Part shown: piece by piece, positions 13,677-27,579 of the stretch
How positions within the stretch are numbered: the stretch's first letter is position 1
How the letters are laid out: every line of letters begins with the position of its first letter
Origin: Rhodoferax sp. OV413
GTDB taxonomy: Bacteria > Pseudomonadota > Gammaproteobacteria > Pseudomonadales > Pseudohongiellaceae
Assembly: GCA_943330915.2 (NCBI GenBank)
Contig: CALQJO020000022.1
Span: 1 to 44,401 of the forward strand
Reading direction: 5' to 3'
Length of the DNA: 44,401 nucleotides
Made by a program: the position numbers and the translations under genes
The notes under the pieces: generated by a model
Seen by the model: only the letters and a program-made list of their open reading frames with translations
Database searches by the model: none
Told to the model about the DNA's origin: nothing

Positions 13677-15317
13677 TTAACGCTGATCGGGTAATTTGTA
13701 ACCATCAGCTTCCAACTTGGCGCGCACTACTTTTTTGTCCATCTTGCCTGTTGCGGTTAGCGGAATCGCATCAACAAACAACACATCATCTGGTAACTGC
13801 CACTTCGCAAACTTGCTCTCGCAGAAACCAATAACGTGTTTAGCGGTAAGTTCTGCCCCTGGTTTTTTTATGACCAGCGCCACCGGACGCTCATCCCACT
13901 TCGGGTGCGGGTGCGCAACGACACAGGCCTGCGCCACGCCGGCAAGACCCACGATGTGATTTTCAAGATCAACCGATGAAATCCACTCTCCACCGGATTT
14001 GATGAGATCTTTAGAGCGGTCAGTGATGATGACGTAGCCATCAGCATCAATTTTCGCAACATCACCGGTAATCAGCCAGCCATCATGAAATTTGTCTGGC
14101 TGCGGATTGTTAAAGTATTCAGAGCATATCCATGGGCCGCGTATCAACAATTCGCCAAACGACTGACCATCGTGTGGAAGCACGTTCCATTTGTCATCAA
14201 AGATTTCGATTTCAAGTCCCGGTATTGGCAGACCAGCTTTGGCTTGATTGTGAGCGCGTTCAGCATCGGACATCGACAGGTGTTTGCGTTTGCCCGTGCG
14301 ACGGCTGATGGTCGCCAGAGGGCTGGTCTCTGTCATACCCCAGCCTTGCACCATCTCTACATTCAACGCATCCCAGTACCATTCGATCAACGATGGGGGC
14401 GGTGCAGATCCGCCGCAGGTCAGACGGGTCAAACTCTTGAACTGGTACTTGCCGGGATTGGCTTCCATCAAGCCTTTGACACCCTGCCAGATGGTTGGGA
14501 CACCCGCCGAAATAGTGATGTCGTAGTCCATTAACATACGCGCCAGGTGGTCGGGCACCATAAAGCGGTGCGGATACACCTGCTTCATGCCCAGCATGGT
14601 GGCTACCCACGGCAATCCCCACGCATTGGCGTGGAACATAGGCACTATGCCGAGCAAGGTATCAGTAGCAGACAAGCCCATCACATCAGTCATTGCAATT
14701 GAAATGGTGTGCAGGTAGTTCGCGCGGTGGGTATACATCACCCCTTTTGGTTTGCCAGTGGTCCCGCTGGTGTAACACAAGCCCATGGCTGAATTTTCAT
14801 CAATTTCCGGCCATTGGTAGCGAGTGGGCTTACCAGCAATAAACGCTTCGTAGTCAACTGAGTTTGGCAGACTGGTCGACCAGTTTTCGAACCCGGGCTC
14901 AGCGGCCACAATTATTCTTTCAATGCTGGGTATTTTTCCGGCGAGTTTCTCAAACAGCGGCAGTATGTCGGCGTCAACAATGACAACCTTGTCCTGTGCA
15001 TGATTGATGATGTACTCAAGGTCAACGGGTGATAGTCGGATGTTAAGAGTGTGAACCACTGCCCCCATACAAGCGATTGCATGATAGGCCTCAAGATGTC
15101 GTGCGCCATTCCACATGAAGGTAGCAACCCGGTCGCCTATCTTGACGCCTGCCTCGTTCAAAGCATGCGCCAGCTGGTGTGCACGATTACGCGTTTCCAG
15201 CATGGTCTGGCTGCGGGCGCCATCGGCCGTCGCAGTCAGTACCTCGACGTCGGGTTGCAGCATGGCCCCCCGATCCATCAGCCTGTGCATCAAAAGGGGC
15301 GTCTTTTGCATGGTCAT
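13677..15317 (-). CDS. Acyl-CoA ligase (AMP-forming), AlkK/DmdB-like
   Basis: A 546-residue ANL-superfamily enzyme that activates a carboxylic acid to its CoA thioester via an acyl-adenylate. Motifs are the phosphate loop YTSGTTGKPKG (residues 182-192), GWGMTETSP, the hinge region with GDVAKIDADGY and SKDLIKSGGEWIS, and the C-terminal catalytic Lys in LTATGKMDKK. Length and motifs fit medium-chain ligases such as AlkK and methylthiopropanoate-CoA ligase DmdB. With the DmdC-type dehydrogenase at 6773 and the hydratase at 40087 the window could supply fatty-acid degradation steps, but these are separate transcripts and the substrate is open. AGGAGA lies 6-7 bp upstream of the ATG. It shares the terminator at 13587-13660. 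Confidence 0.9.
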   Translation of the reverse strand: MTMQKTPLLMHRLMDRGAMLQPDVEVLTATADGARSQTMLETRNRAHQLAHALNEAGVKIGDRVATFMWNGARHLEAYHAIACMGAVVHTLNIRLSPVDLEYIINHAQDKVVIVDADILPLFEKLAGKIPSIERIIVAAEPGFENWSTSLPNSVDYEAFIAGKPTRYQWPEIDENSAMGLCYTSGTTGKPKGVMYTHRANYLHTISIAMTDVMGLSATDTLLGIVPMFHANAWGLPWVATMLGMKQVYPHRFMVPDHLARMLMDYDITISAGVPTIWQGVKGLMEANPGKYQFKSLTRLTCGGSAPPPSLIEWYWDALNVEMVQGWGMTETSPLATISRRTGKRKHLSMSDAERAHNQAKAGLPIPGLEIEIFDDKWNVLPHDGQSFGELLIRGPWICSEYFNNPQPDKFHDGWLITGDVAKIDADGYVIITDRSKDLIKSGGEWISSVDLENHIVGLAGVAQACVVAHPHPKWDERPVALVIKKPGAELTAKHVIGFCESKFAKWQLPDDVLFVDAIPLTATGKMDKKVVRAKLEADGYKLPDQR

Positions 15318-15564: not shown

Positions 15565-15969
15565 TCACTGGCGGGTATACGTCATTGCAAGAATTTGTTC
15601 GCCGGCTTCGTTCCGCTGAACCATTTCGATCTTGGGGCTGGTTGGTCCGAACATCCACTTGACATTGAAGTACACGCGGTTATGGACGGGCGGTAGCGTA
15701 ATGTACGAGCCGGCAAGATTTGTTGACATGGAAATGCCCACACCATCCCACATACAGGCTGCCACACCACGCGATTCGATTCGCCAGTAGGCTTCAGCAA
15801 ATTTCGGTACAGGAATATTGATTGAGGATACAGTCAAAACACATTCATCATCCTGATCCGATTTGTATACCCCATCGATCTGAGCGAATGCCGACTGGCC
15901 AGCCAGCAACAGACCTGTTGCCAGGCCACCTACTCCAAGAAGTTTTGATAAACGATTTTTTGTAAACAT
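15565..15969 (-). CDS. Small exported protein of unknown function
   Basis: A 134-residue protein with a clear Sec signal peptide (KNRLSK n-region, Gly/Leu-rich core, cleavage at AFA-QI near residue 29). The mature part of about 105 residues has two well separated Cys (DDECVLTV and VAACMWD) that could form a disulfide, and reads as mostly beta. I do not recognise the family. It has its own terminator (15484-15547) and is separated from the amine oxidase gene upstream by another terminator and a tandem repeat, so it is probably monocistronic. Start ATG 15969 coincides with the signal peptide. Confidence 0.7.
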   Translation of the reverse strand: MFTKNRLSKLLGVGGLATGLLLAGQSAFAQIDGVYKSDQDDECVLTVSSINIPVPKFAEAYWRIESRGVAACMWDGVGISMSTNLAGSYITLPPVHNRVYFNVKWMFGPTSPKIEMVQRNEAGEQILAMTYTRQ

Positions 15970-16248: not shown

Positions 16249-17820
16249 TTACACTTCGGTACGAACCCGCTGGTCCATGTGTGCGATGGCCCAATGGGCG
16301 GACAATATCGCGCTTTCCATCCACGCGGATTTTTTGCTGATCTGATCGCCAATCATGTAATGACGGCCACTGGGTTGCTGCAAGGTGTTGTAATGTTGCT
16401 CATTCTCGGGCGTTGATGCGCCCCATCGAGCTGAACACCCAAGCATGTGGTTCATGCGATGCCAGGCGATGGTGACACCATGTTCCGCCATGGCTCTGTA
16501 TTGCGGATGGATTTTTTCACCCTGTGAGAGCATCGATTCAATACGCTCTTCCTGGGTCATACGGGTGAAGTCCATGCCATTGCCATACTCGTACGCCGCG
16601 AGCATCACGCCCTTCTGGCGCAACAGGCCGTGGAATGGATACCAGATCTGCCGAATGGGCTGATTGGTCCAGGTGATTCCACCATAGATTTCTTCGTTTT
16701 CCCAAAAACGCTCTTTCATCTGGAAGGCGCCTTTGTAAGCGACACCGCGACGGATGACTTTCATGGCAGCCCGGTATTCGGCGGGGAAATTAGCTTCGAT
16801 TCCCACCATCAGGTGTGAAGGTATACAGTTAAAGACGTAGTCAGCAGTAATCGTATGGCGTTGGCCATTCTGGTCATAGGTCACATCAATACTGTCGCCA
16901 TGATCATGAACTGCCATGACCATCGCATGGTATTCAATCTTGCCTTCCAGCTGACGAATAAAACCGGCCGTAATCTGGTCCATACCGCCGATAGGTTGCA
17001 TCAGCATCGGACCGGTTTCACCCTCGTTTTCGGTGAGAACCGCGCGCAGAGCGCCAACACTGGCTTTGAGCAGGTCACGCACTTTGATCATTTCTTTCTG
17101 CACAGGCTCATCAATAAACCCGCCTGAAGCCGGTCCATTGCGCATGCTACCGGTATACTTGCCTGCCTGATCCAGGTCTCCGAACATGCGGATAGTGGTC
17201 AGCATTTTTTCGGCTTCTGCCTCTGTGAAAGGCTCATCCAGTTCAGCGTTGTTGAAACCTTTAAACATCAGCTCCGCCATAAACCCTTTCAGGTTGGTGC
17301 TGATGTCAATATTGCGCATGGGTTTGCCACCGTTCAATTCAGGGTCGTGTACCAGTGCATGTTTATTTTCGTTGATGAAAAATTCGAGGGGAATCTGCAA
17401 TTCTTTACAGTAATGCAGAAGATTCTTATGCGAACTTGGGATACGAGCTGCGCCGCAATTGAAATACAGGTGTGGCTCATCATCGAATTTGCAGACCTGG
17501 GGATTGCCGATTTCATCAATCAGCGTGCCATGACGCACGGTCATGATGCGACCACCACATCGATGTGAGGATTCCAATACTGTGCAGTTATAGCCGGCTT
17601 TAGTTAGTTCGTAGGCGGCTGTTAACCCGGATATACCACCACCCAGCACTACAATTCGGCGTTGCTGACCAGCAAGCGGCATCAACGCAGGAACGCTGGC
17701 GGCCGAACTGGCCGGGATTAGACCAAGCGCCCCACCGACTCCCAGCACAGCTGCGGTTCCGCCGGTAGCAGCGATCAAATTCATAAATTCACGACGGGTT
17801 ACTGGTTTTGACACGGACAT
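16249..17820 (-). CDS. Tat-exported FAD-dependent amine oxidase (flavin monoamine oxidase family)
   Basis: A 523-residue flavoprotein. The N-terminus carries a twin-arginine signal, TRREFMN (Arg9-Arg10), followed by a long Ala/Gly hydrophobic stretch ending near PASSAA (residue 41); the enzyme should be folded with FAD and exported to the periplasm. The dinucleotide-binding motif VVLGGGISGLTAAYEL (residues 57-72) and the following LESSHRCGGR place it in the amino-oxidase family (PF01593), which oxidises amines or L-amino acids to imines. The ATG at 17820 has GAGGAT just upstream; a TTG at 17832 is less likely. It is divergent from a CadC-like regulator. Its upstream region shares sequence with that of the TonB receptor at 20684, suggesting one regulon. 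Substrate is unknown. Confidence 0.88.
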   Translation of the reverse strand: MSVSKPVTRREFMNLIAATGGTAAVLGVGGALGLIPASSAASVPALMPLAGQQRRIVVLGGGISGLTAAYELTKAGYNCTVLESSHRCGGRIMTVRHGTLIDEIGNPQVCKFDDEPHLYFNCGAARIPSSHKNLLHYCKELQIPLEFFINENKHALVHDPELNGGKPMRNIDISTNLKGFMAELMFKGFNNAELDEPFTEAEAEKMLTTIRMFGDLDQAGKYTGSMRNGPASGGFIDEPVQKEMIKVRDLLKASVGALRAVLTENEGETGPMLMQPIGGMDQITAGFIRQLEGKIEYHAMVMAVHDHGDSIDVTYDQNGQRHTITADYVFNCIPSHLMVGIEANFPAEYRAAMKVIRRGVAYKGAFQMKERFWENEEIYGGITWTNQPIRQIWYPFHGLLRQKGVMLAAYEYGNGMDFTRMTQEERIESMLSQGEKIHPQYRAMAEHGVTIAWHRMNHMLGCSARWGASTPENEQHYNTLQQPSGRHYMIGDQISKKSAWMESAILSAHWAIAHMDQRVRTEV

Positions 17821-17883
17821 AATCCTCTGCAATCACTCTTTCGTATAAACCGGCTCTAACTCCCGGACTGCTCATGTAGTGTC

Positions 17884-17950
17884 ATTATCTAACGAGAACC
17901 ACAAAAAAGTCCTGCCGGAATCATCCCCGAAACCTACTAAAACTGCTAAA
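17884..17950 (-). promoter_or_regulatory. Predicted activator-dependent promoter of the amine oxidase gene
   Basis: Reading the minus strand: tandem TTTAGCAGT and TTTAGTAGG boxes (complement of 17933-17950), AGGTTTC (complement of 17929-17935), 16 bp, then GGACTT (17907-17912), a 17-bp spacer and GATAAT (17884-17889). The -10 is good and the -35 is poor, as for promoters needing an activator. Closely related elements stand before the TonB receptor (20523-20580). Transcription would start near 17877, giving a leader of about 57 nt. Confidence 0.55.
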
Positions 17951-17964
17951 ACAGGCGATAAACA

Positions 17965-18008
17965 AGCACCTGCTTGGTGCGCCATGTTCATGTGGGCACC
18001 AGCATAGC
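17965..18008 (+). promoter_or_regulatory. NtrC-like palindrome and sigma54-like promoter upstream of the regulator
   Basis: GCACC-TGCTT-GGTGC (17966-17980) matches the core of the NtrC site TGCACC-N5-GGTGCA. Downstream, GGCAC at 17995-17999 is followed by GC at 18007-18008 with the required GG-N10-GC spacing of a sigma54 promoter (TGGGCAC-N5-TAGC), pointing to the regulator gene at 18205. GGTGC and the second GCACC (17996-18000) could also pair. The rest of the 384-bp divergent spacer (17821-18204), apart from the oxidase promoter, shows nothing else. Confidence 0.35.
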
Positions 18009-18204
18009 GCCAAAAAAGTATGCATCCTACCCGCTTACATCATAAAAATTACAAAAAAGCACTGGCCTCTATTTTGCATGCTCGATCATTACCTGAAGCG
18101 TCTGAACGGAGCGGTTTGCTGTTGACTGCGTCTGAACAAACCTCAACACGCTTGACCTTTGGCAGTGATTTTGGTTGCATGTCCTCAAACAAGAAGCCAG
18201 CAAT

Positions 18205-20337
18205 ATGACAAACCAATCAAATATTAAGCTCGACAACAGTCCGGTCACAATTGGTCAATGGATTGTCAGTCCGGCAACCTGCACGATCATCAAAAATGAC
18301 CGGGAGACCAAGATCACTCCACGCAGCATGGACGTGCTGCTTCTGCTCATCGAAAACGCAGGTACTGTTGTAAGTCCTGCGGATTTTCTGGATACCATCT
18401 GGCGCTCGCCCATTGCAACTGACCATGCCGTGCACAAGGCAATTGCTGAATTACGTAGCGCGTTGGAAGACGATGCTCATCACCCTGTGTACATTAAAAC
18501 AGTCCCCAAACGAGGCTACACGCTGATCGCGGAACTCAGTCGCAGTGTTGTGCGCGGAGATGTAAATGGCGCTTCAGATAAAACGGATGCGATGCAACCT
18601 GTTCCGATTGCACAGGCTCCTGACAGTCTCGGCCTAAAACCATTACCGCAATCGTTTTGGCGCCGTGGGCTTCTGGCAGCAGCACTGTCTGCGCTGGTTG
18701 TGATCGTTCCGCTGACATGGCGATCACCCGTTAATACGCCTGAGGCCGAAGGGGTGGTAAAGCTGGCGGTACTGCCTTTCGAATCGCGTGATTTTACTGA
18801 TGAGAATCAAATTCTTGCTGAAGGCATCAGAGACTCGCTGATACATGGGCTCTCCAAAATAGGTCACCTCCAGGTCTTGTCGGCGGCCAACGCTAGTCAC
18901 ATGACACCTGCTGGGACAGCCGCAGAAAGCGCAAACCTTTCTGAAGCGGATCATATTCTGCAAGGCAGTGTAATGATTGCTGACGGTAAGCTGCGTGTCA
19001 TCGTGCAGATGGCCAGGTCTGGCGATGGATTGAGTGAATATTCCGAACAGTTTGATCTGCCGATGAACGACATATTTGCTGTTCAGGATCAAATCGCCAG
19101 TAATGTGGTCAGTGCGCTCAGTATTTATCTGAACGATGCAGAGCGTTCGCAGATGCTGGATTGGGGTACCACCAATCCACTGGCCTACGAGCGATTTTTG
19201 CGCGGCGAGTTCTACAACAACCAGTTTAATCCGGCCGACTGGGAGCGCGCCATCAGTGATCATCAGGCGGCGATTGAGCTTGATCCCAATTTTATGAACG
19301 CCTATCACGGCCTTGCCACAGCAGCCAACAATCTGGCTGTGTACAGCGGGACTGAAAAAATCAACCAAATGTACGAGCTGGTGCTGGGGGTGCATCGTGA
19401 AGTATCCCGCATAGATCCAGACAGCTCTATCCTCGACTCGATTCACGCGATCAAGTTGCGGATGCAGGGCTCCAGTTACATCCAACAGGAAATCCAGCTT
19501 CGCGAGCAAATTTTGTCTGGCAACCCGCCTCAATTTGCCATGGCGCACTACGCCTTATTGTTGATTGGTGCGCGCATGTATAAAGAAGCAGCAGAATTTC
19601 TGAACCTGACGTCAGAGACCGGGCCCTATGAGATTTCACCAGACGAAGTGTGGAGTTACCGGATTAGTGTACTCACCCCTTCTGACGCTATTCTTGCCCG
19701 CAAGAACCAGCTGCAACAGCGACCATATCATGTCGGCTTCCTTGGCTCAGTGGCGGCAAACCTCGCCATGCTGGGTGATTTCAGGCAGGCTCATATTTAT
19801 CTTAATCAACAGCGTGAAGTGGATATCGAAGGTATTCTCGAGCATTACACCGAGATTACCATGAGTTTTCTGGCAGGTGATATACAGCCGGGATCTGCGC
19901 AGTTTTTTGCGGCGCTGCGGGAGCATCCGGATTTTTTTTACAATAACGGCATGTTGTCTTTTATGACCGGGGACATTGAGCGCGGCATCGAATACTGGCA
20001 GAACTTGCAACCGGAGCAGTTACGCAGGTTGTTTAATGTGACGCATGACGCTGAAAAATACTTCCCCGACCATGTGCTCGCCTCTGCAGATTATCAGCGG
20101 CTGCTTGAAGCCTTAGGTGCTGGCGTGAGTTGGCAACACCGATTGATGGAAGGTGTTATGCAAATGGAAGAGATAACGGGTGTTGCCTTGAGTCGCCAGT
20201 CCAGCGAAGCCTATGAACGCGGCGAATTAATGACTCAGAATAACCTCTGGTCCGAGCAGCAGTGGGCCGAATTTAACCATCACAAGACTCAGCGTACCAA
20301 CCAGGCATCAACGCTGAGTGCCAATCGGATTCACTGA
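18205..20337 (+). CDS. CadC-like membrane transcriptional regulator with TPR-type periplasmic domain
   Basis: A 710-residue one-component regulator. Residues about 14-110 form an OmpR-type winged helix (ITPRSMDVLLLLIENAG, the recognition region around DHAVHKAIAELR, and the wing YIKTVPKRGYTL). A single membrane helix follows at 154-172, then a FlgO-like domain (LAVLPFESRDFTDENQ, residues about 185-310) and a long helical region with tetratricopeptide-like repeats to the end. This layout senses a periplasmic signal and binds DNA from the membrane. ATG 18205 was taken over TTG 18175, as the longer form lacks a better ribosome site. It lies between the amine oxidase and the TonB receptor genes and is the obvious candidate to control both. 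Confidence 0.88.
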   Translation: MTNQSNIKLDNSPVTIGQWIVSPATCTIIKNDRETKITPRSMDVLLLLIENAGTVVSPADFLDTIWRSPIATDHAVHKAIAELRSALEDDAHHPVYIKTVPKRGYTLIAELSRSVVRGDVNGASDKTDAMQPVPIAQAPDSLGLKPLPQSFWRRGLLAAALSALVVIVPLTWRSPVNTPEAEGVVKLAVLPFESRDFTDENQILAEGIRDSLIHGLSKIGHLQVLSAANASHMTPAGTAAESANLSEADHILQGSVMIADGKLRVIVQMARSGDGLSEYSEQFDLPMNDIFAVQDQIASNVVSALSIYLNDAERSQMLDWGTTNPLAYERFLRGEFYNNQFNPADWERAISDHQAAIELDPNFMNAYHGLATAANNLAVYSGTEKINQMYELVLGVHREVSRIDPDSSILDSIHAIKLRMQGSSYIQQEIQLREQILSGNPPQFAMAHYALLLIGARMYKEAAEFLNLTSETGPYEISPDEVWSYRISVLTPSDAILARKNQLQQRPYHVGFLGSVAANLAMLGDFRQAHIYLNQQREVDIEGILEHYTEITMSFLAGDIQPGSAQFFAALREHPDFFYNNGMLSFMTGDIERGIEYWQNLQPEQLRRLFNVTHDAEKYFPDHVLASADYQRLLEALGAGVSWQHRLMEGVMQMEEITGVALSRQSSEAYERGELMTQNNLWSEQQWAEFNHHKTQRTNQASTLSANRIH

Positions 20338-20522
20338 CAGGTTGCTTTTCACGGCCTCCGCGATGACTTTTGGCCTTAAAAGCGACAATCATGTGCCAGA
20401 TCAAACCCTTACTATTCTAATCCCGTGCAAACTCGGTTATGCTCGCCTCAGTCATGCATAAACCGGGCATGGTGTAATACAAAAACGAACAGACCTCGCG
20501 TATTACCTGACCTTCAGGACTA

Positions 20523-20580
20523 TTTAGTAGGTATTAAGAAGGTTTCAGGGAGGACTTTGACGAGGCCATGTTCACATAAT
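20523..20580 (+). promoter_or_regulatory. Predicted activator-dependent promoter of the TonB receptor gene
   Basis: Boxes TTTAGTAGGT (20523-20532) and TTAAGAAGGT (20534-20543) repeat with an 11-bp period, a spacing typical of OmpR-type sites. AGGTTTC (20540-20546), 5 bp, GGACTT (20552-20557), a 17-bp spacer and CATAAT (20575-20580) follow, leaving a leader of about 97 nt. The same element and hexamer layout precede the amine oxidase gene. A small palindrome CCTGA-N3-TCAGG lies at 20506-20518. The remainder of the 346-bp spacer (20338-20683) shows no gene. Confidence 0.55.
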
Positions 20581-20683
20581 CGGGCTAGCCGTATAGCTGA
20601 GATTTTTAGAATACAGATAACAACGGCCAGCTCTTAATCGGTTCATGAACAAGACGCACTTACTACAGTAAAAGGATAAATCA

Positions 20684-23224
20684 ATGAATAGAACTCCAAA
20701 ACTCTGCACACTCTCGTCAGCACTCGTATTGCTCGGGTCTATGGCGGCAGTTGCTCCGGGTGCATACGCACAACAAGGCGGAGCCGCACCAGAGCTTGAA
20801 GAAGTTGTTGTTGTAGGTTCTCGCGCTGCGCCACGTACCGCGCTCGATTCTGCTGCACCAGTCGATGTCTTTTCAGCTCAGGACTTTCAGGATCAGGGTA
20901 CCTCTGATATCAACGATCTGATGCGTAACCTGGTACCAACGTTCAACGTACAGACTCAGGATATTAACGACGGTTCTTCTCTGGTTCGCCCAACCACCTT
21001 ACGTGGTCTGCCAGCTGACAACACACTGGTTCTGATCAACGGCAAGCGTCGTCACCGTTCAGCTGTCATCCAATACGGTCGTTCAGGCACTCACTTCCCC
21101 GATATTCAGATGATCCCAGCAGTTGCCTTGCAGCAAGTTGAAGTACTGCGAGACGGCGCATCTGCACAGTACGGCTCTGATGCGGTAGCCGGTGTATTCA
21201 ACTTCCGTCTGAAAGAAAACACTGAAGGTATTTCTCTGGAGTATAAAACCGGACAATACACACGTACCAAAGACGGCACCTTGCAGTATGTGGCTGGTAA
21301 CGTTGGCCTGCCACTTGGCGCTGATGGTTTTGCCAGTTTGAGCTTTGATGTCACCAACCAGATGAAGAGTGACCGCTCTGTTCAGCGTTTGGATGCACAG
21401 GCTATTATCAATGCTGGTAACAGAGCAGTACCTGTTCCCGCTCAGAAACAAGGCCTTCCTGATGTAGAAAACTTTAACCTGTTTATGAACACAGGTATTC
21501 AGCTGTCTGCCAACCAAGAGTTGTACTCCTTTGGCGGTTACAGTGAAAAGCGTAACGAGCTTGGATTCTTCTACCGTCCTGCCGAAAACCGCGCTGGCTT
21601 GTTCACTTCCGGTGCTAACCAGCTGATTCTGGACACCACGGCGAATGGCACAGGCAACTGCCCGCGCGTTCCACGCAGTGTTTACCCTAATGCAGGTAGC
21701 TCGCTGGAAGTACTGCGACAGGTCGGCGCAAACCCCAACTGCTTCAGTTTCCTTGAATGGTACCCGGGCGGATACACACCTGAGTTTGGTGGCGAGATTG
21801 TTGATTTTTCTAACGTGACCGGTGTCCGTGGTGAACTGTCTGACGGTACCCGTTATGACGTCAGTATCAACAACGGTTTCTCTGAAGTGGATTTCTTCAT
21901 CTACAACACCACTAACCCATCCATGGGTCCACAGTCCCCGACCTCATTCAGACCGGGCATGTACACTACGATTGAAAACAACCTCAACGTTGATTTTGTA
22001 AAACCCATTGAAGTTGATGGTTTTGCCGGCCCCTTGAGTTTCGCTTACGGTGCAGAGTGGCGCCGTGAAATATTCCAGGTTTCCAACCAGGATGAAGCGG
22101 CTTGGAGACCGGGCCCTTATGCACGTCAGGGCGCTAACATCGGTTCCGATGGCTTCCCCGGTTTCGGACCTTCTGCACAGGGTACCTGGGATCGCAAGAA
22201 CTGGGCGTTTTACGTAGACGTAGAAGCTGACGTGACTGAGAATCTGCTGCTGGGTGCTGCGGTTCGTCACGAAGACTTCTACAACACCTTTGGTGGAACT
22301 ACTGAAGGTAAACTGTCAGCCCGTTACCGTCTGACTGATACGATGAACATCCGTTCTACGTACAGCACTGGTTTCCGTGCCCCGTCTCCAGGACAGGCCA
22401 ATATCTCCAACATTCGTACTGGTACGAATGCTGGTATCACAGTCAACTTCGGACAGATTCCACCAACCAACCCGATTGCTGCTGAATTTGGTGGTCTGGA
22501 GCTGAAGCCGGAGACAGCAGAGAACTTCTCTATCGGTCTGGCATTGGAAGTGGGTGGAGTTGACCTGACAGTTGACTACTACAACATCAAGATGAAGGAT
22601 CGTATCCTGAACTCCAGCAACTTTATTCTGACGCCTGCCAAGGCAGCGCAGCTTGAAGCGTCGGGTGTTCTTGGGGCGTCTACAATCGCTGAGTTCTCCT
22701 ACTACACCAACGACATGAGCACCACTAACGAGGGCGTGGAAATTGTAGCGTCTTACACTCAGGATTGGGGTGACATCGGCCGTACCCAGTTTAACGGATC
22801 GTGGGCATACACGGATCAGACGCTTGACAGCTTCACACCTGCACTGCTGAACCGCGCTGCACAGCTTGGCTTGACAGACCAGATCCCAGCTAACCGTGGT
22901 AACTTCCGTGCCAACCACCTGATCGGTGACTGGCGCTTCACACTGCAGGCCAACTACTATGATAAATATCTGATGGTGCCGAACACTGCCAACCCAGCTT
23001 TTGATTACTGGGCGGAATCAGCGATTATTGGCAGTGGCGAAGTTGCCTATACTTGGAACGACAGCTACACCTTTATCATTGGGGCAGACAACATCGGCAA
23101 TACCTCACCTGAGCGTATTCGTCCGCAAGATATCGGATCAGGCACTTCCAATGCCTACCTGACGTCTTCAGGTTTCAGCCCGAATGGTCGCTTCCTGTAT
23201 GGCCGTGTGCAGGTCAGCTTCTGA
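20684..23224 (+). CDS. TonB-dependent outer-membrane receptor
   Basis: An 846-residue receptor. Signal peptide to about AYA-QQ (residue 30), then a TonB box-like stretch LEEVVVVGSR, the plug domain (TTLRGLPADNTLVLINGKRR; VEVLRDGASAQYGSDAVAGV) to about residue 185, and a 22-strand-type barrel ending in the aromatic YGRVQVSF, which suits BAM-mediated insertion. TonB receptors use proton-motive force to import scarce ligands into the periplasm. No siderophore-specific feature is evident, and the ligand is probably linked to the neighbouring periplasmic oxidase, cytochrome and RidA genes. A ribosome site AAAGGAT precedes the ATG. Its promoter region resembles that of the amine oxidase. A terminator follows at 23262. 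Confidence 0.93.
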   Translation: MNRTPKLCTLSSALVLLGSMAAVAPGAYAQQGGAAPELEEVVVVGSRAAPRTALDSAAPVDVFSAQDFQDQGTSDINDLMRNLVPTFNVQTQDINDGSSLVRPTTLRGLPADNTLVLINGKRRHRSAVIQYGRSGTHFPDIQMIPAVALQQVEVLRDGASAQYGSDAVAGVFNFRLKENTEGISLEYKTGQYTRTKDGTLQYVAGNVGLPLGADGFASLSFDVTNQMKSDRSVQRLDAQAIINAGNRAVPVPAQKQGLPDVENFNLFMNTGIQLSANQELYSFGGYSEKRNELGFFYRPAENRAGLFTSGANQLILDTTANGTGNCPRVPRSVYPNAGSSLEVLRQVGANPNCFSFLEWYPGGYTPEFGGEIVDFSNVTGVRGELSDGTRYDVSINNGFSEVDFFIYNTTNPSMGPQSPTSFRPGMYTTIENNLNVDFVKPIEVDGFAGPLSFAYGAEWRREIFQVSNQDEAAWRPGPYARQGANIGSDGFPGFGPSAQGTWDRKNWAFYVDVEADVTENLLLGAAVRHEDFYNTFGGTTEGKLSARYRLTDTMNIRSTYSTGFRAPSPGQANISNIRTGTNAGITVNFGQIPPTNPIAAEFGGLELKPETAENFSIGLALEVGGVDLTVDYYNIKMKDRILNSSNFILTPAKAAQLEASGVLGASTIAEFSYYTNDMSTTNEGVEIVASYTQDWGDIGRTQFNGSWAYTDQTLDSFTPALLNRAAQLGLTDQIPANRGNFRANHLIGDWRFTLQANYYDKYLMVPNTANPAFDYWAESAIIGSGEVAYTWNDSYTFIIGADNIGNTSPERIRPQDIGSGTSNAYLTSSGFSPNGRFLYGRVQVSF

Positions 23225-23261
23225 TTTGAGTAAGCACTCTTATTAGCAAGTGTAAGAACAG

Positions 23262-23292
23262 GAGGGGCGGAATTTATTTCGCCCCTCTTTTT
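23262..23292 (+). terminator. Rho-independent terminator after the TonB receptor
   Basis: An 11-bp stem (GAGGGGCG…CGCCCCTC, 23262-23272 with 23277-23287, one G-U pair) with a 4-nt loop is followed by five T. It separates the receptor from the cytochrome gene, unless read-through occurs. Confidence 0.9.
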
Positions 23293-23295
23293 AAC

Positions 23296-23327
23296 TGAAG
23301 TGCAAGTTAAGTGAAGTGCAAGTTAAG
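23296..23327. repeat. Two tandem copies of a 16-bp repeat
   Basis: TGAAGTGCAAGTTAAG occurs at 23296-23311 and 23312-23327, followed by a partial TTAAG. It sits directly after the receptor terminator and before the cytochrome gene; it could be slippage or an operator. Confidence 0.9.
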
Positions 23328-23375
23328 TTAAGTATTTAAATGCAGTTTTTTCGGTCTACATTAAAGGTTTTTTGT

Positions 23376-24002
23376 ATGAAACAAGCAGGGTTCTGGTTAA
23401 ATCTGGCGCTGGGTGCCGCTTTGTGTACTACAACACAGGCCGCAACCGTTGACGGCGTGGAAGTCAGTGACCGGTTCTGTCTGACTTGCCATGGCACTGA
23501 TGGCCAAGGCAATATTGGAATTGATGCCCCGCGCATAGCCGGGATGGAACGCTGGTATTTGCAGCGACAATTGGAAATCTTCAGGGATGGCCTGCGTGGC
23601 ACGCATCCGGAAGATCTTGTGGGTCAGGAGATGCAGCCGATGGCTGCGATACTCACCGACAACAGTATCCAGGATGTACTGAATTGGGTTGAAACCTGGG
23701 AATACAAACCCGCGGAGATTACATTAACGGGTGGCGACACGCAGCGTGGCAAAACGTTGTATCAGTCATGCGCTTCCTGCCATGGCGCCGACGGCGAAGG
23801 CAACGAAGTGATGAAAGCACCGGCCCTCAGAGGGCAGAACGACTTTTATCTTGTTAACCAACTGAAGAGTTTTAAAGCAGGCTGGCGTGGTTTTGACCCA
23901 CGCGATCAGCAGGGAACACAGATGCGCCTGATGGCACAAGCAATACCAGATGATCAGGCCATTACGGATATTGTCAGCTATATCAATACCTTAGGCCGTT
24001 GA
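23376..24002 (+). CDS. Periplasmic diheme cytochrome c (c4-like)
   Basis: A 208-residue protein with a Sec signal peptide (cleavage near TQA-AT, residue 22) and two homologous halves. Each half has a CxxCH haem site: Cys35-Leu-Thr-Cys38-His39 and Cys132-Ala-Ser-Cys135-His136. Each half also has a downstream Met pair (MQPMA, MRLMA) offering the sixth haem ligand. This is the cytochrome c4 plan, which carries electrons in the periplasm. ATG 23376 gives a clean signal peptide and has AAAGG upstream; ATG 23340 would add 12 residues. The RidA-like gene starts 41 bp downstream with a strong ribosome site, so they form an operon. It may accept electrons from the exported amine oxidase; that is inference. 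Confidence 0.9.
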   Translation: MKQAGFWLNLALGAALCTTTQAATVDGVEVSDRFCLTCHGTDGQGNIGIDAPRIAGMERWYLQRQLEIFRDGLRGTHPEDLVGQEMQPMAAILTDNSIQDVLNWVETWEYKPAEITLTGGDTQRGKTLYQSCASCHGADGEGNEVMKAPALRGQNDFYLVNQLKSFKAGWRGFDPRDQQGTQMRLMAQAIPDDQAITDIVSYINTLGR

Positions 24003-24043
24003 TAACAACTGCCTTTTTCATCAGATCTTTCAAGGAGAAAGCG

Positions 24044-24559
24044 ATGTCCCTATCCCCCGTAAAAAAGGTTATCACCGGCGCAGTTGTGGCGTGTGGTTTT
24101 GCGATGGCAGCTGCCAGCGTGAGTGCACAGGATGTGATTATTCATCCTAATGCAGGCACCTTTCCGATCGCCAACGCGGTTGAAGTAGGCCCAGGCGCTA
24201 CCATTGTTTTCCACAGCGGTGTGACACCGGCTGCGGCTAATCCTGACGCGCAGCGTGGCACTCCCGAGTATTATGGCGATACCAAAACTCAGGCCATCAG
24301 TGTGTTTGAGCGCATGCGCGCGGATCTGGAGCGTCACGGCCTGAGCATGGGTGATGTTGTCAAGATGACCGTGTTCCTGGTGGGCGACCCGGCCATGGGC
24401 GGCCAGATGGATTTTGATGGTTTTATGGAAGCTTACCGCATGTATTGGGGTACTGCTGAGCAGCCACGACTTCCCGCGCGTTCAACCGTGCAGGTTGCCG
24501 GTTTGGTGGGCCCGCTGATGTTTGTTGAAGTGGAAGTCATTACAGCAACAACACGCTAA
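24044..24559 (+). CDS. RidA-family protein with a signal peptide (periplasmic)
   Basis: A 171-residue protein: Sec signal peptide (KK n-region, cleavage at VSA-QD, residue 28) followed by a complete RidA/YjgF domain. The substrate Arg is present (Arg146 in LPARSTVQVAGL) and acidic Glu residues follow in VEVEVI. RidA hydrolyses reactive enamine/imine intermediates, for example from amino-acid oxidation, and is normally cytosolic; an exported form is unusual. AAGGAG lies 6 bp upstream of the ATG. An in-frame TTG at 23999 overlaps the cytochrome stop and is not favoured. Placed after a periplasmic cytochrome and near an exported amine oxidase, it could clear the imine products made there. A strong terminator follows. 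Confidence 0.9.
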   Translation: MSLSPVKKVITGAVVACGFAMAAASVSAQDVIIHPNAGTFPIANAVEVGPGATIVFHSGVTPAAANPDAQRGTPEYYGDTKTQAISVFERMRADLERHGLSMGDVVKMTVFLVGDPAMGGQMDFDGFMEAYRMYWGTAEQPRLPARSTVQVAGLVGPLMFVEVEVITATTR

Positions 24560-24702: not shown

Positions 24703-27579
24703 TCAAGATTGTGGTTCCCACTCCACGCTCATATAGAACTGACGTCCCCAGGGTGTGTGCAGCCGGCTGGCGAAACCCGCCAGCATTGGCAGACGCTGTG
24801 CTTCGCGGTCAAACAGGTTATTTACACCAACGCTGAGATTGATATTGCTGTCGAGGTAGCTATCAAACAGGTAGCTGTACTGTAGGTTGGTAATTGTCCA
24901 TGCTCGCACACGTCCATCACTGGGCGCTGGTGTACCGGTTAATGCATTTTGGATAATGGCATCAAAGGCAACACTGTCTTGGTGGTTGTAACTGAGTGAT
25001 GCGCTATGGTTGTCGCGGAACCATGCCAAACGCGCCTGAGCTTTTAGCTTGGGAACAGGGCCGACGATGCCGGTTCTGTCATTTTGTAAACCAAGCGCGT
25101 CCACAATGATTCCCTGACCACCGTCGTACTTATAGTCGGTGTTGTAAGTTGCGCTCAAAGTGGTTGTAAACGTACCGAGATTGCTGGTGTCGATTGAGTA
25201 CCGAGCCCGTGCATCAAACAAATCTACCCACACACTACTGACGTTTTTAGACTGACTGACGACGCGGTTCACCCGTTGAGTCGCTGACTCACGTGTGACG
25301 CGGGCCAACGGTGTACCGCCTGCCGCAATCCAGGCATTCGCCGCGTTACGAGTCGCAGATCCAAGTGCGCTGCTATAAGTTGCACGTGTGGAACCGATTG
25401 CTTTTAACATCTCCGTATACTCGATATCGACGATATCCAGGGTTCCCAGGGTACGTATCCTGTCAATGTACTCAATTGACTGATAGTCCATGCTCAAGGA
25501 GAAGCTATCCATCGGCTCCCAGGTAAAGCCAACGTTCCATATATCCGATGTTTCTGGCCTCAAGTCCGGGTTACCGGAAGAACAGGTTGCACCACCATTC
25601 AGCAGGCCGCCTGTCAGAGGATCTGATCCAAAGAATATTTCGCCACAGTTTTCGTTTGGATCAAATGGGCGTGCACTGGCCGGTGTTGGTGCGAGGAAAC
25701 TTTCACCAACCGAACCACGTAGAGCCAACGTAGGCAGAACTTCCCAACGCAAGGCGACCTTGGGTGTGGTTGTTGCCAGATCATAAGTCGTGAATCGCTC
25801 GTGTCTTATCGCGATCTGGGCATCAACAGTTTCGAACAAAGGCAATTCAAGTTCGAGATAAGCGGCCTGAACGCGGCTGCCATAACGACGGTCTACAGGA
25901 ACGCTGTCGCGAATACTCGCATTATAATTCTGGCGAATCTCGGACAGAGGATGCGCATTGTCGGAATCGGCAATATCACGCATCTGGTAGCCAACCGCCA
26001 TTTGTGACATGCCGGCCGGCATTTCGAAAAGGTCACCCGTGGTGTTTAGTTCAAACACCGTCAATTCAGTTTTGCCAGAGCGATATCTGATCGAGGGCGC
26101 TATCCAGTCCACAAGAGCTTGTGAGTTGCTGGTGACACCCTGTCGGAAAAACGGCGAACGCGAATCAGCAGAGCCGAACGGGTTAAACCACTCGTTACCC
26201 GCGGGACCACCCCTGCCGATCAGCGCTGACTGCAGGTTCGTCATGTGGATAGAATTATTCAAAGTATTTGTGTGAGAGCGTTGGTAACTGAACGATGAAT
26301 TAGCAGTCCAGCTGCTGCTCAGATCAAACATGGCACCAACTTTGTACCGTTGAATCAATGTATTGCTTGTGTTCAAACGGGCGCCGGTGGTCTTATCAGT
26401 GTAGGACGGCAAGGTGCCAGCGTTGGCAAATGGTCGCCACTCAAACGGGACAAGATCTGCAGCAAAAGGGTTCGCCGGGTGGTTGGCAGGTACCACAAGA
26501 CCATCACGATTATTACTGTTCAGCTGAAAAGACAGTGTGGCATGGCCGTCTTGTTCGCGGTTAGCGAGGGACATCTGTGCATTCAGGCGCACGCCACTGG
26601 ACAATTCATAGTCAACATTCTGGAAAAAAGTAGACTCTCGTTTGCCTGAGGCCAATGGCCACTGCTGTGAGTAGTTGAAGAAGCAGTTATTACCCGGGCG
26701 AACTATTCCGCTGGGGTTATTATTCGCTCCACCAAAATCAGTAGCACCCTGATTAAATGTTCCGCAACTGGGGTCGAGCAGATTGCCTCCCGTCACCGTG
26801 CCACCATGCAGTTGACCAGGTACCGGTTTTGCGTTGTTTACGCGGCGATAAACACCTGGGTTACCGGAGGTGGCCCAACCAAATGAAGATCTGAGTAACT
26901 TCGGCCGCTCCGGATTCATCAGGGGAGTGGTTTCTGAATGTTCAACTGCCGCCACGTACTCAATGCCATTGCTAAAGGTTTTGCCCCACAATAAGCCCAG
27001 ACGGCTGTCTTCGAAGTCACCGGGCTGATCGCGCTGATAGTTCATGCGTACGCGCAGACCATCAAAACTCTTAATAGGGATCAGGTTAACTACACCCGCT
27101 ACTGCGTCGGAGCCGTAAAGAGCGGAACCACCATCGAGCACGACTTCCATGCGTTCGATGGCAATTTCAGGCAGCAGGGTATTAATTGCGGAGTCGACGG
27201 AGCGCATGCCATCCATCAGAGTCAGTGTACTGTTTTCTCCCAAGCCACGTAAGTTAAACGTAGTCCCTACGCTGGACTGGGGGCCGGCGCCACCGGCATT
27301 AACGCTGTTAACCGTATTGGTATTTTGTGTGTAACTCAGATCCCGGATGTAGTTGCCCATGTTAGGTGCGCCAGCAGCCTTGATATCTGCCTGGCTGACG
27401 GTGTCTACCGGGTTATTCTGTGCAAATGCGCTGTTGCGGATGAAAGAGCCCGTAACAACAACTTCTTCCAGTTCTGGTGCTTCCTGCTGTGCAATTGCAA
27501 CTGCAGGCAACACGAGCGATCCAGCCATACATGTCTGGATAAGGTAACTCAGATAACGCTTTTGTTTTTTGTTGTTCAT
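24703..27579 (-). CDS. TonB-dependent outer-membrane receptor (second)
   Basis: A 958-residue receptor with signal peptide (KKQKR n-region, cleavage near AIA-QQ, residue 30), TonB box-like LEEVVVTGSF, plug domain (FNLRGLGENSTLTLMDGMR; MEVVLDGGSALYGSDAVAGV) and a long barrel. It ends SVEWEPQS rather than in an aromatic residue, though FYMSVEW just before it could serve as last strand. It is longer than the receptor at 20684 and not a simple duplicate. The ligand is unknown. GGAGAG lies about 9 bp upstream of the ATG. No gene is close upstream except nitronate monooxygenase, 383 bp away. Confidence 0.92.
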   Translation of the reverse strand: MNNKKQKRYLSYLIQTCMAGSLVLPAVAIAQQEAPELEEVVVTGSFIRNSAFAQNNPVDTVSQADIKAAGAPNMGNYIRDLSYTQNTNTVNSVNAGGAGPQSSVGTTFNLRGLGENSTLTLMDGMRSVDSAINTLLPEIAIERMEVVLDGGSALYGSDAVAGVVNLIPIKSFDGLRVRMNYQRDQPGDFEDSRLGLLWGKTFSNGIEYVAAVEHSETTPLMNPERPKLLRSSFGWATSGNPGVYRRVNNAKPVPGQLHGGTVTGGNLLDPSCGTFNQGATDFGGANNNPSGIVRPGNNCFFNYSQQWPLASGKRESTFFQNVDYELSSGVRLNAQMSLANREQDGHATLSFQLNSNNRDGLVVPANHPANPFAADLVPFEWRPFANAGTLPSYTDKTTGARLNTSNTLIQRYKVGAMFDLSSSWTANSSFSYQRSHTNTLNNSIHMTNLQSALIGRGGPAGNEWFNPFGSADSRSPFFRQGVTSNSQALVDWIAPSIRYRSGKTELTVFELNTTGDLFEMPAGMSQMAVGYQMRDIADSDNAHPLSEIRQNYNASIRDSVPVDRRYGSRVQAAYLELELPLFETVDAQIAIRHERFTTYDLATTTPKVALRWEVLPTLALRGSVGESFLAPTPASARPFDPNENCGEIFFGSDPLTGGLLNGGATCSSGNPDLRPETSDIWNVGFTWEPMDSFSLSMDYQSIEYIDRIRTLGTLDIVDIEYTEMLKAIGSTRATYSSALGSATRNAANAWIAAGGTPLARVTRESATQRVNRVVSQSKNVSSVWVDLFDARARYSIDTSNLGTFTTTLSATYNTDYKYDGGQGIIVDALGLQNDRTGIVGPVPKLKAQARLAWFRDNHSASLSYNHQDSVAFDAIIQNALTGTPAPSDGRVRAWTITNLQYSYLFDSYLDSNINLSVGVNNLFDREAQRLPMLAGFASRLHTPWGRQFYMSVEWEPQS

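Follow-up and report, generated by a model that had tools for sequence, protein, structure and literature searches.

A putative extracytoplasmic L-amino acid dehydrogenase module with a dedicated cytochrome c and an exported Rid protein in Pseudohongiella and other Pseudomonadota

Organization of the locus

The window analyzed here is a stretch of 44,401 nucleotides (contig CALQJO020000022.1, positions 1 to 44,401, of assembly GCA_943330915.2) that is deposited under the name Rhodoferax sp. OV413 and is one of the 127 contigs of a 2.89-Mb draft genome. Its nearest named relatives, in a scan of named genomes, belong to Pseudohongiella, which places the window in or beside that genus. Between positions 16,249 and 24,559 lie genes for a flavoenzyme of the amine oxidase family, a CadC-like regulator, a TonB-dependent receptor, a diheme cytochrome c and a Rid protein. 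A sequence-only reading of the window had placed genes of these five families together, and this was borne out, as all five open reading frames lie where it put them and Pfam and NCBIfam profile matches agree with the families. The enzyme gene is on the minus strand and diverges from the regulator gene, which is followed by the receptor, cytochrome and Rid genes, all on the plus strand; the enzyme gene is therefore divergent from the cytochrome gene and two genes away from it. The genome has a single copy of an enzyme of this kind.

Three of the five genes probably encode an extracytoplasmic module that consists of an exported L-amino acid dehydrogenase, a dedicated cytochrome c that accepts its electrons, and an exported Rid protein that acts as an imine hydrolase. 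The exported oxidase, the exported Rid protein and the dedicated cytochrome travel together, and extracytoplasmic oxidation, electron transfer and imine removal are therefore the best reading of the set. To this extent the interpretation offered by the sequence-only reading stands; its proposal that the receptor imports the substrate is not supported.

The flavoenzyme

The enzyme gene (16249..17820, minus strand) has its likely start at ATG 17820, and the longest open reading frame extends to TTG 17832. The product belongs to the flavin adenine dinucleotide (FAD) amine oxidase family (PF01593, E 1.1e-35). Its best PDB match and closest solved structure is the Rhodococcus L-amino acid oxidase 2jae (E 2.3e-67), with 148 of 463 aligned residues identical. 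Export of the oxidase by the twin-arginine translocation (Tat) system and general secretion (Sec) signals in the set had been predicted, and both are visible in the sequence: a TRREFM motif followed by a hydrophobic stretch in the enzyme (17698..17820, minus strand; all 20 aligned sequences have R13 and R14) and Sec-like segments in the cytochrome and the Rid protein.

Arg130 (codon 17443..17445, minus strand) aligns with position 83 of the 2jae sequence and Tyr414 (codon 16591..16593, minus strand) with position 370, and each is invariant in the 20 aligned sequences. We take them to be the carboxylate-binding Arg84 and the Tyr371 of 2jae. Full-length similarity and the aligned Arg and Tyr, on these presumed roles, place the enzyme in the Rhodococcus-type L-amino acid oxidase family, and the carboxylate-site residues fit alpha-amino acids as predicted substrates. 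Lys367 (codon 16732..16734, minus strand) is conserved in the alignment and is presumably the flavin-N5 lysine of the superfamily; it is not diagnostic of the electron acceptor. The enzyme shares with the NicA2/CycN kind the combination of a PF01593 flavoprotein and an N-terminal Tat signal, and NicA2-type PDB entries match its N-terminal stretch only (E 1e-6). A LodA-type identity was rejected: LodA and GoxA, which oxidize amino acids in marine Gammaproteobacteria including Rheinheimera, have a quinone cofactor and belong to a different protein family (accessible text of PMC4417212).

The cytochrome

The cytochrome gene (23340..24002, plus strand; likely start 23376) encodes a protein with a Sec-like signal, two stretches that match PF00034, and a match to PF13442. 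The heme motifs are CLTCH (23478..23492, plus strand) and CASCH (23769..23783, plus strand). These two CxxCH motifs uphold the earlier description of a diheme cytochrome, whereas the c4 kinship implied with it has been set aside, since related genomes encode cytochrome oxidase subunit II proteins whose diheme domains are nearer to this protein. Outside the loci considered here, its nearest relatives in genomes of the family are mostly diheme domains that end oxidase subunit II, and a subunit I gene adjoins the diheme subunit II gene in all three such loci inspected. In a 94-row tree, made by a quick method with no bootstrap, 68 linked cytochromes (of 93 distinct ones) form one group (Shimodaira-Hasegawa-like approximate likelihood ratio support, SH-aLRT, 93) that excludes the 16 subunit-II domains and the 10 c4-type proteins. 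Nine of the 10 c4-type rows cluster on a branch of 1.91 and the tenth is a long-branch outlier, and c4 identity was rejected. The kinship with subunit II suggests that the cytochrome may deliver to a terminal oxidase.

The Rid protein

The Rid gene (24044..24559, plus strand) is in a frame open from TTG 23999, and its likely start, ATG 24044, is 41 bases past the stop codon of the cytochrome gene. The sequence-only reading had called the product a RidA protein with a Sec signal. Membership in PF01042 (E 3.7e-13) and the Sec-type signal peptide (24044..24130, plus strand), which has counterparts in relatives, were confirmed, but the protein is Rid3-like and not archetypal RidA: its nearest solved relatives (PDB 9bka, E 1.3e-32; 9bkc, E 4.6e-31) are the Rid3 proteins PSPTO_3006 and PFL_1385 (Rid3 labels from PMC5619798). 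The Arg of the PARS motif (24479..24481, plus strand), equivalent to catalytic Arg105 of RidA, is conserved in all 132 rows, of 134 aligned, that cover this column. The column of the Tyr-to-Ile signature of Rid3, located by an FPI motif that is present in the window protein, holds Ile in 63 of the 134 rows, Phe in 61, Tyr in 5 and Leu in 2, with a gap in 3.

Almost every Rid protein linked to this enzyme has a signal for export or membrane attachment. The N-termini of 112 were collected, a set that includes repeats from the same genomes, and 93 were parsed (19 were not). A targeting segment was found in 90 of the 93: 67 are Sec-like, 16 have a possible lipobox (doubtful at loci L038, L039, L041 and L084) and 7 have an anchor or long linker (doubtful at L140). 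The remaining three are L123, which has a shortened frame, and L240 and L241, which are of a signal-less type. At these last two loci (L240:5923-7986, L241:5969-7986) the Rid protein is PSPTO_3006-like, the Tat stretch of the adjoining enzyme is broken by charged residues, and there is no cytochrome gene. The pair looks as if it had been relocated to the cytoplasm jointly, and since the two loci are close relatives they would represent one event. In two other lineages the diheme cytochrome and Rid occupy a single open frame: Pseudohongiella nitratireducens (L045 and L087; L045:8019-9197) and L252 (L252:7910-9253). A signal-like stretch is retained between the two parts, so separate processing is possible.

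Conservation in near relatives

Pseudohongiella (L038, L039, L041-L045) and a second genus of the family (L053, L054, L056) share the gene order enzyme, regulator, receptor, cytochrome, Rid. A compact form, with enzyme, cytochrome and Rid genes on one strand, occurs at L048, L058, L059 and L061-L065. Four Pseudohongiella species (L067, L069, L071, L073) keep the first four genes and have a Rid relative elsewhere in the genome. Over 56 genomes, the enzyme and a close Rid relative were both present in 24 and both absent from 30, and each occurred alone in one; in these single cases (G004, G005) the contigs end at the locus. Weak Rid matches in G019, G041 and G042 (E 3.5e-5 to 4.1e-4) are uncounted, and their inclusion would turn the table of 24/1/1/30 into 24/1/4/27. 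A record titled Klebsiella pneumoniae (L093) carries a Pseudohongiella-type locus, and its label is probably wrong.

The separation of the Rid gene in the four Pseudohongiella species and the existence of two gene architectures speak for an explanation in which the genes are neighbors through co-regulation for the use of amino acids or peptides and share no single electron pathway. The electrons would then enter a general periplasmic pool and Rid would act on imines from elsewhere. This is quite unlikely, since cytochrome and Rid are joined in single frames in two lineages and since the cytochrome type follows the enzyme clade, as described below.

Distribution in wider samples

The scan of named genomes gave 558 loci, of which the best 80 were analyzed, a sample that leans to close relatives. 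These include loci from Pseudohongiella, Rheinheimera, Alteromonas, Neptunicella, Peristeroidobacter and Woeseiaceae. Fifty-four of the 80 have at least 6.5 kb upstream and at least 2.5 kb downstream; the other 26 have shorter flanks and were set apart. All 54 loci have a gene for a diheme cytochrome c no more than 6.5 kb from the enzyme gene (within 1 kb at 46), and 44 of the 54 have a Rid gene within that distance. The sequence-only reading had asked for a conserved neighborhood in related genomes, and one is found for the enzyme, cytochrome and Rid genes. Without the flank filter, the 80 loci show the cytochrome in 74, Rid in 59, the receptor in 28 and the regulator in 17. Rheinheimera has the receptor, enzyme, cytochrome and Rid genes consecutively where the contig permits, with the receptor upstream on the same strand.

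Two further gene families accompany the set in this sample. A gene of the sodium:dicarboxylate symporter family (PF00375; L105:9308-10696) is between the cytochrome and Rid genes at 22 of the 80 loci, and an amidase-family gene (PF01425; L105:11424-13286) is downstream at 17, the family having been identified on one member of each cluster. Uptake of a product by the symporter and release of a substrate by the amidase would fit the module. At L132, genes for pyrroloquinoline quinone (PQQ)-type beta-propeller dehydrogenases (L132:4658-6712 and L132:9449-11506) flank an enzyme-cytochrome pair that has no Rid gene.

Even draws of genomes were made at three ranks. The enzyme was found in 27 of 398 genomes of Pseudomonadota and in 44 of 390 genomes of the order (both at E <= 1e-40), and in 6 of 369 genomes of the class (E <= 1e-60). 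The phylum draw yielded 30 places outside the window, and the twin-arginine motif was matched in 29 of them. A gene for an exported-type heme-c protein adjoins the enzyme gene at 22 (3 diheme and 19 monoheme; the protein at L220 is an unusual lipoprotein and the gene at L233 is upstream), a Rid gene is on the same strand within 3.5 kb at 23, and both are present at 16. A chance neighborhood is rejected by this linkage and by that in the 54 named loci; the whole genome of the window has just three PF01042 matches. The neighborhood is real and selected.

A tree of 66 enzyme rows was built by a quick method with no bootstrap (25 rows were chosen from the 80 named loci, and row L162 equals L216). 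It contains a clade of 35, 34 of them with a diheme cytochrome, a clade of 19 with monoheme cytochromes, and a clade of 10 which, with two outliers, has no cytochrome gene. The cytochrome type changes three times on this tree, against a mean of 27.4 when shuffled. The cytochrome type is thus fixed by the enzyme lineage, which is the pattern expected of an electron acceptor.

The enzyme might instead be a periplasmic oxidase that makes hydrogen peroxide for antimicrobial or signaling purposes, with the cytochrome in another role, such as peroxide removal, and with Rid limiting imine damage. Antimicrobial L-amino acid oxidases are known from marine sources (PMC6316408), and the enzymes of the clade of 10 are Tat-exported and have no cytochrome gene. 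Akram and coworkers reported that most of the Tat enzymes they tested that have no adjacent cytochrome gene are oxidases (Akram et al. 2025, PMC12224317). Rodrigues and coworkers called their enzyme a peroxide-forming oxidase and named peroxide scavenging among the roles for a cytochrome (Rodrigues et al. 2016, PMC5053998). A peroxide-forming oxidase is nonetheless unlikely in the branch of the window, where every adequately flanked locus has the cytochrome gene and where, within the sample, this lineage of cytochromes occurs at no other loci.

Relation to known systems

The module with dehydrogenase, cytochrome and Rid has a close precedent. In Gluconacetobacter diazotrophicus the lao gene lies beside cccA, encoding a cytochrome c, and ridA, and two transposon mutants in lao leave tryptophan unmetabolized and form no auxin (Rodrigues et al. 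2016, PMC5053998). The lao, cccA and ridA transcripts drop together in the lao mutants, and earlier work cited there found 5% of the auxin in cytochrome c maturation (ccm) mutants. The authors proposed cooperation among the three proteins, a periplasmic location for the enzyme with its Tat signal and a possible role of the cytochrome as carrier of the enzyme's electrons, and they noted conservation of lao-cccA-ridA in Caulobacter and Xanthomonas (PMC5053998). The window, too, has genes for a Tat-signal L-amino acid oxidase, a cytochrome c and a Rid protein together, and the Gluconacetobacter enzyme aligns with the Rhodococcus oxidase at 34% identity. The lao, cccA and ridA genes, with the products GDI2456, GDI2455 and GDI2454, are side by side, whereas the enzyme gene of the window is divergent; compact relatives of the window have all three in a row. 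Compared by description, the accessible text of PMC5053998 mentions no CadC-like regulator or TonB receptor, does not discuss export of RidA and does not state the cytochrome type.

The three-part core is therefore not new, and both it and the main idea were already published (PMC5053998). The claim that the combination is undescribed fails for the core. No description of the core set together with the receptor and regulator was found in the literature searched, mainly the main texts of open-access papers. What is new here is the diheme branch with its dedicated cytochrome lineage, the export of Rid by several routes, and the single frames of cytochrome and Rid, as well as the correspondence of cytochrome type with enzyme clade, the breadth of the distribution and the addition of CadC-like and TonB genes. 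What had been reported as a cluster of a single plant-associated bacterium is a module present in 27 of the 398 Pseudomonadota genomes of the even draw.

The survey also connects the module with recent evidence that many flavin amine oxidases are in fact dehydrogenases that use a cytochrome, and it suggests that enzymes now annotated as oxidases may respire amino acids without forming peroxide. Akram and coworkers showed that a Tat signal and an adjacent cytochrome gene predict cytochrome-using amine dehydrogenases (Akram et al. 2025, PMC12224317). The NicA2/Pnao-CycN systems and their kin share with the present one a PF01593 flavoenzyme, a Tat signal and an adjacent gene for an exported cytochrome c. 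Their dehydrogenase nature was shown kinetically, whereas the present system is known from its genes, and the accessible text of PMC12224317 mentions no Rid, TonB or L-amino acid.

Genes for RidA, and sometimes Rid3, occur beside genes of the FAD amine oxidase family, and imine hydrolysis was proposed for them (Niehaus et al. 2015, PMC4433059). Unlike the set here, that account mentions no cytochrome, periplasm or signal peptide in its accessible text. The Rid3 proteins PSPTO_3006 and PFL_1385 hydrolyze imines that are products of an L-amino acid oxidase and of DauA (PMC5619798); signal and periplasm are absent from the accessible text of that paper, in contrast to the exported Rid described here. 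In the hybrid nicotine cluster of Agrobacterium S33 and its relatives, one region includes a Rid family protein and a flavin oxidase together with a TonB receptor and a cytochrome c, and Rid is predicted to remove an imine (PMC7688666). It differs in that the Rid protein is of the Rid6 type, the pathway enzymes except NdhAB are described as cytoplasmic, and the substrate is nicotine. Chlamydomonas has an extracytoplasmic, periplasmic L-amino acid oxidase in complex with a RidA-type subunit; that system belongs to a green alga, and no cytochrome partner is mentioned in the account given in PMC5053998.

Proposed mechanism

In the proposed module the enzyme would work outside the cytoplasmic membrane and oxidize L-amino acids. 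The reduced enzyme would be reoxidized chiefly by the dedicated exported cytochrome c, which is diheme in this branch, and not by oxygen; it would thereby act as a dehydrogenase, its electrons passing to the respiratory chain. The exported Rid protein would then hydrolyze the imino acid to a keto acid and ammonia in vivo.

Several observations weigh against this proposal. The lysine linked with oxygen activation is conserved in the enzyme alignment, although known dehydrogenases also keep it, and the enzymes paired with diheme c4 cytochromes showed just a modest reaction with these partners in solution (Akram et al. 2025, PMC12224317). On the enzyme tree, the clade of 10 lacks a cytochrome gene, and the diheme clade has one monoheme row, L251, at its base. 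Rid is missing from 10 of the 54 named loci and from 7 of the 30 phylum-draw places, with nine changes on the tree. The sole COX1 match in the genome of the window has a monoheme subunit II adjoining. The Gluconacetobacter insertions in lao lower all three transcripts, and the contributions of the parts are therefore not separated. Finally, TatC had no match in the draft genome of the window (G000); it is present in all 14 other genomes of the genus Pseudohongiella that were searched, and the absence is most simply read as a gap in the draft.

A more far-reaching form of the proposal is possible but doubtful. It describes a widespread periplasmic L-amino acid respiration in which enzyme, cytochrome and Rid form a complex that channels the imine to Rid. 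The diheme cytochrome, as kin of the entry domain of a terminal oxidase, would feed that oxidase directly and bypass bc1, and enzyme-cytochrome pairs would be matched in each clade.

The regulator and the receptor

The CadC-like regulator (18175..20337, plus strand) has a winged-helix domain (Trans_reg_C, E 1.7e-15), a hydrophobic membrane segment and a weak tetratricopeptide repeat (TPR) match, and it matches the CadC model NF007540 at E 7.4e-30, below the cut-off. Its gene is within 6.5 kb of the enzyme gene at 12 of the 54 loci, and it is lineage restricted. The gene diverges from the enzyme gene in Pseudohongiella, where its product is the probable regulator of the set.

The TonB-dependent receptor (20684..23224, plus strand) has barrel (PF00593) and plug (PF07715) domains. 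Its gene is within 6.5 kb at 21 of the 54 loci, and the genome of the window has 28 PF00593 matches. By our own estimate, 28 matches give a chance of about 16% of finding one within 6.5 kb of a given gene, versus the 21 of 54 in related, non-independent loci, which argues weakly for membership of the receptor in the set. The receptor is adjacent in Pseudohongiella and is upstream on the same strand in the Rheinheimera loci, and from this it could be supposed that the system processes an amine-bearing ligand imported by the receptor and not free L-amino acids. Such a role is highly improbable, since the receptor accompanies the enzyme at just these 21 loci and the aligned carboxylate-site residues fit alpha-amino acids. 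The claim that the receptor imports the substrate is not supported, given the same linkage and the number of receptor matches in the genome. The receptor and regulator are lineage-specific additions to the module, and in Pseudohongiella the receptor probably imports a related nutrient.

Neighboring genes

A second TonB receptor gene follows on the opposite strand (24703-27579, minus strand), and its position is not consistent among relatives. It was rejected as a member of the module, no close match being found next to the set in L042-L045. On the other side of the locus, a gene at 15565-15969 (minus strand) encodes a small exported-looking protein with no Pfam or NCBIfam match, and it adjoins the enzyme gene in most Pseudohongiella-type loci. 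An acyl-CoA ligase gene (13677-15317, minus strand) is likewise near the enzyme gene in Pseudohongiella-type loci. The nearest model for its product is 3-(methylthio)propionyl-CoA ligase, with a score below the cut-off, and a link with a methionine-derived keto acid is conceivable.

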